Below the pieces are notes generated by a model. It saw nothing but the letters and a program-made list of their open reading frames with translations. It made no database searches and was not told where the DNA came from. Below are positions 8,172-14,656 of a stretch of DNA of 64,000 nucleotides, piece after piece. A program made the position numbers and the translations under genes. The stretch comes from Deltaproteobacteria bacterium ADurb.Bin207 (GTDB lineage: Bacteria > Myxococcota_A > Polyangia > Polyangiales > Polyangiaceae). Where the stretch lies: contig MWCO01000027.1 in assembly GCA_002070115.1 (NCBI GenBank), forward strand, positions 1 through 64,000. The letters run 5' to 3'. Numbering within the stretch: position 1 is the first letter of the stretch; each line of letters begins with the position of its first letter.

Positions 8172-10727
8172 CTACTGGCGAATCTGCACGACGGATCGGG
8201 GCGCGAGATATTCCTCGATCTGGTCGAAGCTCAGGTAGCGATATACTTCCTCACTGCTTTCGCGCAGGCAATTCACAGCCTCGAAGTATTCATCCACCGT
8301 GGGGAGCTTGCCTTTCCACGCCGCCACGGCCCCCAATTCCGACGAGCCGAGATACACCTTGGCGCCGCGACCCATGCGGTTGTCGAAGTTGCGCGTTGAC
8401 GTGCTGAATACCGTGACCCCATCGCGAACGCGCGCTTGATTTCCCATGCACAAACTGCAGCCCGGGATCTCGATGCGAGCGCCGGCCTTGGCAAAGATGC
8501 CATATACGCCTTCGGTCTTGAGCTGCTCGACATCCATGCGCGTGGGAGGAGCCACCCAGAGCTGGGAAGCGGCGAATCCTTTGCCATCGAGAATGCGCGC
8601 CGCCGCTTGATAATGGCCAATATTCGTCATGCACGAACCCAAAAAAACGTCGTCGATACGCGCTCCCGCAACCTCATGCAGCGGCTTGACATCGTCCGGA
8701 TCGTTGGGACAGGCCAACAATGGCTCGGTGATCGACGTCATATCCACTTCGATCACCGCCGCGTAGTGCGCATCGTTGTCTGGCTCGAGCAACACGGGAT
8801 TGGCGATGAATGCTTCCACCGCATCGGCTCGCCGCTTCAACGTTTCCGCATCCCCATAGCCTTGCGAAATCATCCATCGCATGAGCACCGCGTTGCTCTT
8901 CAAAAAGGCCACCACCGGCTCCTTGTTCAACCGAATGGTGGCCGCCGCGGCACTGCGCTCGGCAGAAGCATCCGTCAACTCGAAAGCCTGCTCCACCGAA
9001 AGGTCAGGAAGGCCTTCCATCTCCAGGATTCGCCCGTTGAAAACGTTTTTCTTCCCCTTTTTCTCGACCGTCAACAGGCCCTTTTGAATCGCCACATAAG
9101 GGATGGCGTTGACGAGATCCCGAAGGGTGATGCCTGGCTGAAGTTGTCCGGTGAAACGAACGAGAACGGACTCAGGCATGTCCAGAGGCATCTTGCCAAG
9201 CGCCGCGGCAAAAGCCACCAATCCAGAACCGGCGGGAAACGAGATTCCGATCGGAAAACGCGTGTGCGAATCGCCGCCCGTTCCCACCGTATCCGGCAAA
9301 AGCAAACGATTGATCCACGAATGAATGACACCATCGCCGGGCCGTAAAGCCACCCCGCCGCGCTGCTGAATGAACGCCCCAAGGTTCCGATGCATTTGCG
9401 CATCGACCGCTTTGGGATAGGCCGCCGTATGACAAAACGATTGCATGACCAGATCCGCCTGAAACTTGAGGCAAGCCAGCTCGGTGAGTTCATCCGCGGT
9501 CATCGGGCCCGTGGTGTCCTGAGAACCGACCGTGGTCATCGTCGGCTCGCAAGACGTTGCCGGACGCACTCCCTCGAGACCACAGGCGCGACCCACGATT
9601 TTTTGGGCAAGCGTAAACCCGACGCCTGGATCCTTGGGCTTCGCGGGCTGCAAAAAGATAGTTGTTTTATCCAATCCCAACGCTCGACGCGCCCTATCCG
9701 TGAGGGAACGACCGATGATCAGCGGAACACGTCCGCCCGCTCGAACCTCGTCCGCTACCGTTTCCGGACTCAGGGTAAAGGCGGCCAGAACCTTCCCTGC
9801 TTCGTTTTCGATCTTTCCTTGGCGAGGATAGACCGCAAGAGCATCGCCATTTTCGATAGAGGTGACGTCACAGCGAATGGGCAACGCTCCCGAATCTTGC
9901 GCCGTATTGAAGAAAATCGGCGCAATCTGACCGCCCAGGATGAGCCCTCCGCGACGCTTGTTCGGCACGAAAGGAATATCCTCGCCGATATGCCAGAGCA
10001 CGCTGTTGCAGGCACTTTTTCGTGACGATCCCGTTCCCACCACATCGCCCACGAAAGCGATGGATTTACCTTGTTGGCGCAGCTTGGCAATCTCTTCGAT
10101 TCCGTGCGGAAAACGGGATTCCCCCATGGAAAGGGCGTGCAAAGGGATGTCCGGACGGCTGAAGGCATGACTGGCAGGACTGAAATCATCGGTATTGATC
10201 TCTCCCGCAACCTTGAAAGCAACCACATCGATTCGCTCCGGCAAAGGCGATCGCTCGGTGAACCACGTCGCATCCGCCCATGCCTGAAGCACATTTTTCG
10301 CATTTTCGTTGCCTTGATGAGCCAGCGCGGCCACCTCGTCAAAGGCATCGAATACCAATAGCGTGCGGGAAAGAGCCTCGGCGGCCTTAGAACCAAGGGT
10401 TTCGTGCGCCAACAGCTCGACCAGGGGTCGGACGTTGTATCCCCCGAGCATGGTCCCGAGCAGAAAAACCGCTTGCTGAGGGTCGATAAGGGGCGAGACC
10501 TTCCGCCCATGAGCGATTTCGGTAAGAAATGCCGCTTTTACCTCTGCCGCAGGATCTACCCCCGGGGGAATTCGATTGCGGAGCAGAGCAAGGAGAGTCT
10601 CCTTGTCTTCCACGGGCGGATTCAGCAACAGGTCGCATACGACGCGAGCTTGATCCGCGCGAAGGGGAAGAGGGGGAATGCCCAGACGAGCACGTTCTTG
10701 CACATGGATTCGGTATTCGCTCAGCAT
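8172..10727 (-). CDS. acnB: Aconitate hydratase B
   Basis: TCA-cycle [4Fe-4S] enzyme isomerising citrate and isocitrate (AcnB also handles 2-methyl-cis-aconitate in some bacteria). It has the AcnB-specific N-terminal HEAT-like domain ([21 protein letters not shown]), the swivel segment [19 protein letters not shown], the substrate-binding [13 protein letters not shown], and iron-sulfur cysteines in [14 protein letters not shown] and [11 protein letters not shown]. 851 aa from MLSEYRI, the usual length. The start is chosen by family alignment; an in-frame ATG ten codons upstream is possible. Convergent with uppP. Confidence 0.97.
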
Positions 10728-10830
10728 GATGGGCCGAGCATCCCTCCATGGGCACAAGCATTCAACCGTACAAGAACCCCCAAAGCGGCAAAGGGCAGAG
10801 AACCGTCAGGACGAAAAGGCGCCGAGGGTC

Positions 10831-10912
10831 TGACAGATCCCTTCATTTTTCCCTGAATGGCAAAGGGATACGAGCAGGGAATCCCCTGGACTTTGACTTG
10901 ATCCTTGAGCCC
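10831..10912 (+). repeat. MITE-like repeat, truncated copy A
   Basis: Begins CTGACAGATCCCTTCATTTT and continues GAATGGCAAAGGGATACGAG. It follows copies B and C to about the GATCCTTGAGCCC position, then diverges. Only the left part is present; the right terminus (GAAAATGAGGG) is missing. Confidence 0.65.
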
Positions 10913-10930
10913 ATTTCGATCAAGCCTTAT

Positions 10931-10960
10931 AAAAATATCAATAAATACAGTTAGTTGAAC
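10931..10960 (-). repeat. AT-rich dispersed motif, copy 3
   Basis: On the minus strand reads AACTAACTGTATTTATTG followed by ATATTTTT, matching the consensus with a two-base gap. It lies upstream of acnB between MITE-like copies A and B. Confidence 0.45.
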
Positions 10961-11071
10961 GCTGCGTAGTGATGCTCGTGGGCTACCAAGCCTCCTCCAG
11001 AAGCTCAGCGAAGCATTCATCCTATGCGAGGAGCGTGATGGTTAGCCCAGCCAGGATATGCCTGACAGATC

Positions 11072-11280
11072 CCCTCATTTTCCCGAATTGGAAAGGGATA
11101 TAATCGAGAATCCACCGAGCCTTGACGTTGACTTGGTCCTTGGCCCTCCTTGGAGCACCACCAACAGTTGCCCGGAGCTACCAAACTTTGGACTGGCGCA
11201 CTGCGGTGATCAAAATGGGATTACCGTGAGCGTTTCTCGTGGGCCGTGACCGTGAAGGAAAGGCCCGGGAAAAATGAGGG
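11072..11280 (+). mobile_element. MITE-like repeat, full copy B
   Basis: About 209 bp. The left end CCCTCATTTTCCCG is the inverted complement of the right end CGGGAAAAATGAGGG apart from one T, giving terminal inverted repeats of about 14-15 bp. The interior carries GAATTGGAAAGGGATA near the left end and CCGTGACCGTGAAGGAAAGG near the right end, both shared with copy C. CTGACAGAT precedes the left end in all three copies. No target-site duplication is evident and no ORF lies within, so it would be non-autonomous. Confidence 0.65.
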
Positions 11281-11339
11281 TTATGCGTCGGCCGTGAGCG
11301 TGACCGTTTTATGTATGAGTCCTGCTCGTCGAGCGCGCC

Positions 11340-11873
11340 CTACTTGGCGGCATCCATGAGCTTCTTGATCTGGCATCTGTTGAGGCACGACGTGTACTCC
11401 TTCGTACCGACCTCGTGCTTCGGTTTGCATTCCGCGACGCAAGCCTCGAGCACCCGCGCTTTCTCCGCGGCACGCTCGCTGAGGTGGTCCTCGAGCCTCT
11501 TGAGTTCGCCCGCCTTACCAGTATCGCCGCAGATGCCGTTGTCCCAGCGCTCCCGTACAGCGGTATCCTCAGCACCCTCGAAGGACTCGCCGTTGTTGCC
11601 GTACTGGGTCTCGCAGCTCACGGGGCATTTGTCCGCCGTTTTGAAGTCGGTGGCACCCAAGATACACTGCGACGAGCACTTCCAGGCATGGAGCGATCGC
11701 TCCTTGAGTGCCGACAAGTTGCTCTTGCAGGCGTCGGCCGCCGTCGCATCGGTGGTGAGCTTCGCCTCCTTGCGGAGGCCCATATAATGCTCGCACACGG
11801 AATCGGGCGACTTGGAGCAGCCAACCACGCAGCCGAGCATCACGAACAGCGAACCCCACTGCAATTCTTTCAT
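11340..11873 (-). CDS. Cys-rich lipoprotein, 177 aa
   Basis: Starts MKELQWGSLFVMLGCVVGC, preceded by AAGGGGAAAGAC as the RBS. The lipobox Cys is near residue 19. The mature part has paired cysteines (WKCSSQC, KCPVSC, ACVAEC, CLNRC) in a helical, charged sequence with KRLEDHLSERAAEKARVLEA. Predicted periplasmic or outer-membrane lipoprotein; no recognised family. It sits in a decayed, repeat-rich neighbourhood but looks intact itself. The longer upstream frame lacks a credible start. Confidence 0.75.
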   Translation of the reverse strand: MKELQWGSLFVMLGCVVGCSKSPDSVCEHYMGLRKEAKLTTDATAADACKSNLSALKERSLHAWKCSSQCILGATDFKTADKCPVSCETQYGNNGESFEGAEDTAVRERWDNGICGDTGKAGELKRLEDHLSERAAEKARVLEACVAECKPKHEVGTKEYTSCLNRCQIKKLMDAAK

Positions 11874-12305
11874 GTCTTTCCCCTTCAAAGCGCGTGCCAC
11901 GATCACAAAAATGGTCCCATACGCAGATCCACATGGGTCACGACAGCCCGAACGCTGCCGCCCGTCGCGCCCATCTACCCAAACGGCGCGCAACGCAGTC
12001 GGAAATCGGTGCTGCCACAGTCGTCTCGGACACGTCAAGACTTTTCCATAGGATAGAAAGGATGAACGATTTCGAATTCGTTCATGAAAAGGAGTCAACC
12101 AGGTAGAACTGGGCGGACCCGAGCAGGGCAGTCAATTCGAGTCTGCTGTAGGGAATGCCCAGAGCCGAACCTCGTCGCTCATCAGACTCAGGCCATCGCG
12201 ACCTGGACGTATACCGCTGGCTGTCCCGCGATAGCGCGAATACCCACGCTAACGAACGCCCCCATGGCAGCAGCACAGCGTTCGGAGCGAGCGCTCAGCG
12301 GAGAT

Positions 12306-12336
12306 AGGAATATATCAATAAATTCCACGTGTTATA
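12306..12336 (-). repeat. AT-rich dispersed motif, copy 4 (degenerate)
   Basis: On the minus strand reads AACACGTGGAATTTATTG then ATATATT. It shares the right-hand part of the motif best with copy 3. Confidence 0.35.
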
Positions 12337-12398
12337 CACAAATTTCGTGTGGTTCGATGCAAACATGCCGGATGAACCCTCTTCTCTCTTGACACTTT

Positions 12399-12554
12399 GG
12401 CGGGCACATCGGCACCGACAGGGTGCGTGCTATCCGCTCTGACGGGCTGGAGAAAACCGTGGCCGCCATTCCGGTCAAGCGCCTGGGTACGCCCGAGGAA
12501 ATTGGCTCTATCGTAGCCTGACTGGCCGACGACGACGCCAGAAACGAGGCCTGA
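12399..12554 (+). pseudogene. Fragment of acetoacetyl-CoA reductase (PhaB-like SDR)
   Basis: In frame from 12399 the DNA encodes HIGTDRVRAIRSDGLEKTVA, then AIPVKRLGTPEEIGSIVA, a TGA stop, then LADDDA. This matches the C-terminal part of PhaB-type short-chain dehydrogenases (GYIGTDMVRAI, IPVxRLGTPEEIGSIVAWLAS). TGA at 12519 replaces the Trp codon. Upstream similarity continues for a few codons only after a one-base deletion (GGGC-ACATC instead of GGGCTACATC), and the catalytic SYK part is absent. No start codon or RBS. A decayed remnant of polyhydroxybutyrate metabolism, probably acquired. Confidence 0.7.
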
Positions 12555-12671
12555 GACAAGACGATGAGCGGCGACGCTCCGTGCGGTAAGCGTCTCGGCA
12601 AGCTCGGACGCGCAGAGGCAAAGCGATGGCGCACGTCGATCCCCTCGAGGCTCCATGGCACCCATACGCCG

Positions 12672-12700
12672 ATTAATACTGTAATTTTCAATATTTACAG
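12672..12700 (+). repeat. AT-rich motif, copy 5, with inverted repeat CTGTAA-N10-TTACAG
   Basis: Reads ATTAATACTGTAATTTTCA followed by ATATTTACAG, resembling copy 3. The inner part (12679-12700) is an inverted repeat CTGTAA, ten bases, TTACAG. It lies about 85 bases upstream of the vWA lipoprotein start, so it may be an operator or promoter element. Confidence 0.4.
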
Positions 12701-12785
12701 CAACAGCCGACTTTTCGACAGCCCCATCATGCTTTTCTTTCGATCCAATGCTACTCTGGAAGGCAGCGCATGGAAGGAGTTGGGT

Positions 12786-14120
12786 ATGACGGTTTCCAGT
12801 CTCTCACGCGTATTGATGTTGTGCGCGTTCGTTTCTGTTTCATGCAGCAGCAGTGAAAACGGTGAGTCTTCTGCCAATGGCAACCATTCCGATGGGGGCG
12901 CTGATAGTTCGGACGGAACGGGTGGGACTGGAGGAGCTGGAGGATCAGCGGGCACCGGCGGCACGGGCGGCGGGATCCTAAATACCGACAGCGGCAACGA
13001 CCAAGGTACCGAGGAAGCGTGCGTCCAGCAGTCCGTCGAAGCTACGATCGAACACCGCCCCATCGACATCATCTTCGTCATTGACAATTCCGGCAGCATG
13101 TCCGCCGAAATCGAGGAGGTGGAGGCACAAATCAACGCCAATTTTGCCTCCATCATCGACAGTGCGGTTCCGGCCATCGACTATCGTGTGGTGATGCTGA
13201 GCCGATATGGTGCCTTCAGCAGTCGCAAAATATGTGTGGCCGAACCCCTGGGTGGTGCCAAAGACGATAACCAAGACGGTCACTGTGACGCCCCCCTTCC
13301 CAACGAGCCCATCAATACGTCCAAGTTCTTTCATCACAGTATGTCCATCGGCAGTTACAACGCTTTTTGCCAATTGCTTGCGGGTTTTTCCGCGGCAGAC
13401 GAATTCAAGCTTCAGCCCAACGGCTACGGAGAAATCCTGCGTCCTGAGGCTTTCAAGTTCATCACGGTCATCACCGACGACCGTGTCAATTGTCCGCCCT
13501 TTGACGATCTGAACACGGAAAATGGCGGAAAGGCTGCCGCGCAAGCCTTTGACAAAGCCCTGCGCGAGCTTTCTCCCGAACACTTTGGAAAGAGCGAAAA
13601 CGAACGCAATTACTCGTTCTGGAGCATCGTAGCCATGGCTCCTTACGAGCCCACCGCGGCGAAACCCAACGGTTCCCCCCATCCCCCGGATGAGTCTCTT
13701 TCTCCCGTAACCACAGAAAAGTGCAAGCCTTCCGCCGTCAACCCTGGAACCGGCTACCAGGCGTTGAGCATCATGACGGGTGGCTATCGCTTCCCGACCT
13801 GTGGGCTGGATTACACGGAAATGTTCCAACTCATGGCCGAGGGAGTCGTCAAGGGCTCGGAAGTCCCCTGTGAATTCATGATCCCGGAGCCTCCCCCCGG
13901 GGAAACGCTGGACCTGAACACCGTGGAAGTTGCGTATAAGTCCAATGGCACCCTTGTCGAAGTCTTCAACAAGGTTGCATCCGAGGAAGAATGTGACTCT
14001 TCGTCGTTCCTCATCGACGGAGAAAGAATCGTATTATGTCCGCAGGCTTGTGACGTTGTCCAGGCCGATGCCGACGCAAAGATCGATATTCTTTTCGGCT
14101 GTGAGATTCAAATCAAGTAG
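12786..14120 (+). CDS. von Willebrand factor A domain lipoprotein
   Basis: 444 aa. The ATG of MTVSSLSRVL is preceded by AAGGAG at six bases. Signal peptide and lipobox-like VSVSC near residue 20; Gly-rich linker (TGGTGGAGGSAGTGGTGGG). A vWA domain follows with IIFVIDNSGSM, the DxSxS part of a MIDAS metal site, and later FITVITDDRVNCPPFDD. The last third has cysteines and a short HYR/CARDB-like beta region (GETLDLNTVEVAYKSNGTLVEVFN). Likely surface adhesin or protein-binding lipoprotein. Intact, although it lies between decayed elements. Confidence 0.88.
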   Translation: MTVSSLSRVLMLCAFVSVSCSSSENGESSANGNHSDGGADSSDGTGGTGGAGGSAGTGGTGGGILNTDSGNDQGTEEACVQQSVEATIEHRPIDIIFVIDNSGSMSAEIEEVEAQINANFASIIDSAVPAIDYRVVMLSRYGAFSSRKICVAEPLGGAKDDNQDGHCDAPLPNEPINTSKFFHHSMSIGSYNAFCQLLAGFSAADEFKLQPNGYGEILRPEAFKFITVITDDRVNCPPFDDLNTENGGKAAAQAFDKALRELSPEHFGKSENERNYSFWSIVAMAPYEPTAAKPNGSPHPPDESLSPVTTEKCKPSAVNPGTGYQALSIMTGGYRFPTCGLDYTEMFQLMAEGVVKGSEVPCEFMIPEPPPGETLDLNTVEVAYKSNGTLVEVFNKVASEEECDSSSFLIDGERIVLCPQACDVVQADADAKIDILFGCEIQIK

Positions 14121-14125
14121 TCACG

Positions 14126-14332
14126 TCACCGCCCGACAACTTCCGAAACGCGCCGCTCGATCGCAGTCACTTTTTCCGACTGATTGTCATCATGTTTGCG
14201 CAATATCGAGCCATCTTCGGAGATAAGCACGCTGTACGACGCGGATCGTTTGGGATTGTAAAGCAATATAGGTCGACTCTTTTCGTCGAGAACAACAGCA
14301 TACTTCAAGTATTGACGCGTAGCATGGTACAC
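14126..14332 (-). pseudogene. Truncated redoxin-like C-terminal fragment
   Basis: A 68-codon reading frame starting at a GTG with no RBS. The upstream frame stays open only to 14356, where it runs into MITE-like copy C and stops. The sequence YAVVLDEKSRPILLYN, ASYSVLISEDGSILRKHDD, VTAIERRVSEVVG looks like the last two strands and helix of a thioredoxin/TlpA-type fold (target, strand, GSI strand, C-terminal helix). No CxxC is left. It is probably the 3' end of a gene cut by the repeat. Family assignment is tentative. Confidence 0.4.
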
Positions 14333-14353
14333 CCCTACGAAACCTGACAGATT

Positions 14354-14600
14354 CCCTCATTTTTTCCTGAATTGGAAAGGGATACGAGTTTAGGATTCTT
14401 GGGTCTTGAGTTTGGCTCGATCCTTGGCCCCCTTGGAGCACCCCCAACAGTTGGCCTGGGCTACTAAACATTGTACTGGCGTGTTGCGGTGAACGATATG
14501 GGATGAACGTGACCGTTATTGTGCGCCATGCACCGTGCGCCGTAGCCGTAGCCGTGACCGTGGCCGTAACCGTGAAGGAAAAGCCCGGGGAAAATGAGGG
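14354..14600 (+). mobile_element. MITE-like repeat, full copy C
   Basis: About 247 bp with left end CCCTCATTTTTTCC and right end GGGGAAAATGAGGG, inverted relative to each other. It shares with copy B the blocks GAATTGGAAAGGGATA, CGATCCTTGGCCC(C), TTGGAGCACC, CAACAGTTG, TACTGGCG-like and CCGTGAAGGAAA(A)G. It is longer than B because of extra GCCGTAGCCGTGACCGTGG-type hexamer repeats near the right end. Its left flank carries CTGACAG as in the other copies and abuts the truncated redoxin-like frame. Confidence 0.65.
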
Positions 14601-14656
14601 GAGGGCTGAGGTCAATCCCGGGTCGTTTCCAGGGTCTTGGCAATCCCACGACGGCT

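Follow-up and report, generated by a model that had tools for sequence, protein, structure and literature searches.

A genome-wide family of miniature elements with IS10-type ends in Deltaproteobacteria bacterium ADurb.Bin207

Introduction

Insertion sequences (ISs) of the IS10 subgroup, within the IS4 family, are tabulated with CT ends, 9-bp direct repeats, a YREK motif and lengths of 1200-1350 bp (PMC2266710). In the literature that we searched, the sole tabulated miniature inverted-repeat transposable element (MITE) derived from the IS4 family is archaeal, the IS4-associated MITE of Haloquadratum walsbyi (ISHwa2; 237 bp, 34 copies, 5-bp direct repeats) (PMC3852290), and a search that combined MITEs with myxobacteria surfaced only a study of an acidobacterium. 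Here we analyze a window of 64,000 nucleotides (contig MWCO01000027.1, positions 1 to 64,000) from Deltaproteobacteria bacterium ADurb.Bin207, in which three related repeats, copies A, B and C, had been proposed in an earlier note to be MITE-like.

These repeats are confirmed as a genome-wide MITE family with sharp shared borders, and we consider it highly probable (roughly 0.93) that the copies are IS10-subgroup MITEs mobilized in trans by an autonomous IS10-type IS. With IS10 of Tn10/ISVsa5 they share CTGA...ATCCCCTCAT ends and the 9-bp duplication, and related full-length elements carry the YREK motif; in contrast to IS10, the elements here are about 200-580 bp long and gene-free, and their left ends read CAG at positions 5-7 where the right ends read GCC. 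Having no gene, they cannot be autonomous. The H. walsbyi MITE is alike in size, copy number and IS4-family origin but has 5-bp repeats rather than 9-bp ones, an archaeal host and a different IS4 lineage. BrickBuilt, a MITE of Porphyromonas gingivalis (PMC4596501), also contains an internal tandem repeat array, although its units are 23 nt long, whereas those here are imperfect and 6 nt long; the likeness noted is that of the arrays. The family is of an ordinary genomic parasite type.

Results and Discussion

The copies in the window and their parts are as follows, each with the evidence for its assignment.

10830-11061, plus strand: copy A, the left part of a long-subtype element interrupted by copy B (long-copy alignments)
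10830-10853, plus strand: left terminal inverted repeat of copy A, CTGACAGATCCCTTCATTTTTCCC (end-pattern search)
11062-11280, plus strand: copy B, a MITE of the main subtype that lies within copy A and has a truncated right terminus (genome matches, nested position)
11062-11084, plus strand: left terminal inverted repeat of copy B (end-pattern search)
11281-11325, plus strand: probable remnant of the right part of copy A beyond copy B (inferred from a short match)
14344-14610, plus strand: copy C, a full-length main-subtype MITE of 267 bp (genome matches, both ends found)
14344-14367, plus strand: left terminal inverted repeat of copy C, CTGACAGATTCCCTCATTTTTTCC (one mismatch to the consensus)
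14588-14610, minus strand: right terminal inverted repeat of copy C, CTCAGCCCTCCCCTCATTTTCCC (three mismatches to CTGAGCCATCCCCTCATTTTTCC)
14539-14575, plus strand: degenerate GTGACC/GCCGTA-type hexamer array inside copy C (about six imperfect units)

When the draft genome (6.55 Mb, 220 contigs, 58% GC) was searched, copy B gave 65 matches and copy C 56, many of them full length, at 73-87% identity. The family left end is CTGACAGATCCCCTCATTTTTTCC and the right end, read inward, is CTGAGCCATCCCCTCATTTTTCC; CTGA and ATCCCCTCATT are common to both, and positions 5-7 are CAG on the left and GCC on the right. Across the genome, a 21-nt left-end pattern matched 72 times and a 23-nt right-end pattern 62 times, and the reversed-pattern controls, run on the whole genome, gave no match for either. 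Counts of ends cover the stretches fetched around search matches; in these, 105 ends at two or fewer mismatches fall at about 70 loci on 50 contigs.

Twenty-eight copies with paired ends measure 172-334 bp and the long copies 497-579 bp, and no transposase match lies within either group. The main subtype, to which B, C and most other copies belong, spans about 200-330 bp and holds CCGTGA-type hexamers in a run of variable length, most copies having 2-6 units in succession. A second subtype, of about 225-250 bp with the interior AAACAAGGGATATGGG..., is the closest to the ends of the autonomous IS discussed below; a long subtype reaches about 500-580 bp, and further copies bear GGCAACAACCGG-ACCGTAGGGGCGGGTTTCAAACCCGCCC. 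When the subtypes are aligned, the ends alone are common to all of them.

The target duplication of the family is 9 bp. Facing ends at a distance of 150-340 bp form 28 pairs, 8 of which are flanked by a 9-bp duplication matching at 8/9 or better, the sole 9/9 case being ATCGTGATA at C39:39134-39381. Random re-pairing of the flanks (20,000 shuffles) yielded on average 0.32 such pairs and at most 4, against the 8 observed, and the mean flank match is 0.50 at a length of 9, compared with 0.23-0.31 when any other length between 5 and 13 is taken.

Within the window, the copies show both nesting and decay. Copy A aligns at 75% identity over 231 columns with a long copy at C1:147521, from the terminal CTGACAGAT to nearly the insertion point of copy B, and it aligns with further long-subtype copies as well; the stretch after copy B has a short match (20/23) to the right part of the C1 long copy. 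Because copy A matches the long subtype up to copy B, and a piece resembling the right part of that subtype follows B, these alignments indicate that copy A is an older long-subtype copy into which copy B jumped. Copy B breaks off at ATGAGGG on the right, its outer ~10 bp gone, and a later deletion probably removed these last ~10 bp together with the middle of copy A. The right junction of copy B is thereby lost; TATGC stands at the expected duplication position, which is weak evidence. Copy B has full-length matches elsewhere in the genome at 79-82%. Copy C, placed between two genes, is 82-87% identical to several copies (86% to C68:8752-8997, for example), and its right end is slightly decayed.

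Much of what the earlier note had read from these copies stands, with altered limits. Copies B and C do share interior blocks: 90 nt agree at 81%, and the last 39 nt at 92%. The inverted ends placed at CCCTCATTTTTCC are real, but the true borders lie 10 bp further out, so that the left borders are 11062 for B and 14344 for C and the right border of C is 14610, in place of those given. The string CTGACAGAT, said to precede all copies, is present before each as the outer part of the terminal inverted repeat itself. The right end of copy B is truncated, and copy A, described as a left-end fragment, is indeed a left part, though not a short one, since it comprises 10830-11061 of an element of the 497-579-bp subtype into which B inserted. 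The hexamers near the right end of copy C are real but modest. Finally, the suggestion that the region is a hot spot of insertion and loss is weakened: A and B form one nested pair, the family occupies ~70 loci on 50 contigs, and other contigs also bear clusters, so that clustering is usual for the family and not special to the window.

The relationship to IS10 is visible in the ends. Those of the MITEs match the IS10 end CTGAGAGATCCCCTCATAATTTCCCC, checked in Tn10-bearing plasmid records including R100, and of the features tabulated for the subgroup, CTGA ends and 9-bp repeats are both found here. Matches to NF033591 (IS4 family transposase) are present in 24 of 108 genomes of the same taxonomic family, 9 of them over the curated cut-off. 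We examined eight complete elements, seven from that family and one from an Anaeromyxobacter metagenome-assembled genome (MAG). They are 1245-1452 bp long, some thus exceeding the published 1200-1350 bp, and have CTGA/CTGC...ATCCCC ends; perfect 9-bp duplications flank four of the eight. The IS10-group left end in relatives G140 and G141 is identical to the MITE left end over 20 bp. All eight relatives' transposases that were read (L227, L229, L230, L232, L233, L250, L251, L257) contain Y-(2)-R-(3)-E-(6)-K, as does IS10, to whose transposase they are 23-37% identical.

With three mismatches allowed, the 24-bp left end of the MITEs occurs 42 times here and once in G005, of the same family, where it stands at the head of a truncated IS4-type gene; the other 95 of the 96 relatives searched, among which there is no other species of the genus, lack it. 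A DNA search of the relatives with copy C matched none except for a hexamer stretch in G015. That genome carries long, near-perfect CCGTGA hexamer arrays of ~20 units (L281 1485-1604; L283 88-208), and in the surroundings read, the L283 array has no adjoining MITE end. The CCGTGA hexamer may be a simple repeat independent of the MITEs.

An autonomous partner with the same terminal repeats, which the earlier note had called for, is complete in related genomes; in this genome, both of its ends and no more are assembled. Contigs C22 and C76 each break off exactly 143 bp into one IS left end, identical at 142 of 143 positions, with a start codon and MATRKNCNQS near the break. Contigs C77 and C14 each break off 118 bp into one IS right end, at 97% identity, which encodes an intact transposase C-terminus, AIPNMKEERLERLVTAYAEVLQEHRLTREILGII-stop (...TREILGII-stop), whose frame runs into the inverted repeat. 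This C-terminus is 76% identical over 34 amino acids (aa) to the transposase of relative G140. In this genome, the partner transposase is readable for its last 34 codons only, the YREK motif being seen in the relatives. Because four contigs break inside the same two ends, as happens at a multi-copy repeat in a short-read draft, the autonomous IS is probably present but unassembled, in at least two copies. When the four IS contig ends were paired by target duplication, the best match was 7/9, for C76 and C14, which is suggestive only. Over its last ~36 bp, stop codon region included, the second MITE subtype, with AGGGAAATACTCCGGGAAAAATGAGGGGATGGCTCAG in C122, is similar to the IS end (AGGGAAATACTCGGGATAATAGGAGGGGATGGCTCAG), and on this resemblance it is plausibly an internal-deletion derivative of the IS.

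Other candidates for the partner were rejected. A 2593-bp pair of ends, C1:147521-150113, encloses a 565-aa transposase of the IS1634 family (NF033559, E 1e-110), and the element that bears it sits within a long MITE copy between perfect direct repeats of 235 bp, so it is not the partner. PF01609 matches on C152 and at C77:26259 belong to IS1634-type or other IS4-type genes.

The IS1634-family element on C1 (G000:C1:147597-149927; L125 8098-10428) has the ends CCCGACTTTGACA/CCCGAGTTTGACA, and its 235-bp repeat consists of the MITE that it entered. For IS1549 and IS1634, long and variable direct repeats are described, for which no mechanism has been put forward (PMC2266710). In L126, a second IS1634-type copy, there is no direct repeat of 15 bp or more.

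The MITEs most probably arose and spread as follows. Each MITE consists of two IS10-type ends, a left and a right one, that enclose a short non-coding stretch. The transposase of an autonomous IS10-type IS elsewhere in the genome would recognize the ~22-bp ends and excise the element by cut-and-paste, as IS10 suggests, and insertion at a 9-bp staggered cut would duplicate 9 bp of target. Several subtypes (main, second and long) were amplified, some copies nesting in one another and decaying by substitution and adjacent deletion. The sequences themselves show the family, its borders, the 9-bp duplications, the homology of its ends to IS10-group elements and the two ends of the autonomous IS in this genome; mobilization in trans, the cut-and-paste mode, an intact transposase gene in this genome and present activity we infer. 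The earlier proposal of a MITE family is upheld by the many genome-wide copies, their consistent borders, the 9-bp duplications and a transposase-bearing element with the same ends.

Several observations weigh against this interpretation. A clear 9-bp duplication (8/9 or better) is missing in 20 of the 28 pairs, copy C included (2/9 at its flanks), so that in many copies a junction has been lost or recombination has taken place. This genome's assembly contains no intact NF033591 gene. Beyond their ends, the MITEs share no sequence with the IS.

The alternative that survives best is a variant of the same interpretation, in which the autonomous IS is broken or gone from this genome and the MITEs are immobile fossils. 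It would fit the divergence among copies (13-27%), the lack of an intact transposase gene in the assembly and the two decayed transposase remnants that we found, at C123:8142 (93 aa, 66%, one TGA) and C24:232-345, both broken. Set against these are the four contigs that break off within an IS whose ends are nearly identical and whose C-terminus is intact, a pattern that usually points to a multi-copy repeat collapsed in assembly, and we judge loss of the IS unlikely, if still worth serious weight.

A role for the host could be imagined in two forms. In the narrower one, some MITE copies would be kept because they serve the host, copy A supplying or separating regulatory signals of acnB and the variable hexamer array tuning the effects; we hold this to be very doubtful. 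In the broader one, the family would not be transposable at all but a host-maintained intergenic repeat (REP/BIME-like, a small RNA or a regulatory hairpin) that spreads by recombination and merely looks like a transposon. Copies are indeed situated between genes or next to them, copy A has its left end ~100 bp upstream of the probable acnB start codon, and the inverted ends are able to pair. Such a repeat would leave the 9-bp target duplications and the nesting unexplained, however, and its ends would not be expected in common with complete insertion sequences, as they are here. Moreover, copy C folds no better than its shuffles (z -0.88), an Rfam search gave no match, and a promoter scan of 10700-11340 found no sigma-70 promoter-like site. 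We therefore regard the broader form as very improbable. Finally, that the three copies reflect chance similarity or purely local duplication, for which their closeness and nothing further speaks, can be dismissed as next to impossible in the face of 65 and 56 genome matches and of reversed controls at zero.

IS10-type MITEs of the kind proposed here seem to have arisen more than once. The MAGs JAJRTK01 (192-219 bp; L256, L258, L260, L263, L266) and CALLYL01 (170 bp; L261) contain unnamed IS10-type miniature elements with the same CTGAGCCATCCCCTCATTTT right ends, and perfect 9-bp duplications flank L258 (GCCTTTGGG), L260 (GGTCTGGGC) and L261 (CCCCTGCCC). Their interiors, in contrast, have no DNA similarity to the family here, and by this comparison they seem to be independent miniature families. 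The present family adds a large, well-bounded set of IS10-subgroup MITEs, in at least three subtypes, together with two ends of its probable driver. Recognizing such elements should aid annotation, as they break contigs, and they could provide a test bed for mobilization in trans by IS10-type transposases. The understanding of transposition itself is unchanged by the family.

A second repeat, the hairpin GTAGGGGCGGGTTTCAAACCCGCCC, occurs 10 times in stretches fetched from this genome (L135, L137, L138, L140, L146, L156, L167, L169, L170, L171) and is absent from the window. In 6 of the 10 it is preceded by GGCAACAACCGG, and 5 of those 6 stand directly beside a MITE right end.

The surroundings of the copies in the window, which had been called gene-poor and decayed, are so only in part, as two open frames lie between the copies: one of 177 aa on the minus strand (11340-11873) and one of 444 aa on the plus strand (12786-14120), with weak VWA similarity. 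The supposed broken phaB, at 12420-12555 on the plus strand, is a C-terminal remnant of a short-chain dehydrogenase (SDR) with an in-frame stop, although its adh_short_C2 match (E 1e-4) is below the Pfam cut-off. The frame taken for a truncated redoxin, 68 aa at 14126-14332 on the minus strand, has no match in a Pfam search, which leaves that identity unsupported. With 12 bp between its start and the left end of copy C, it may represent a gene truncated at the MITE border.

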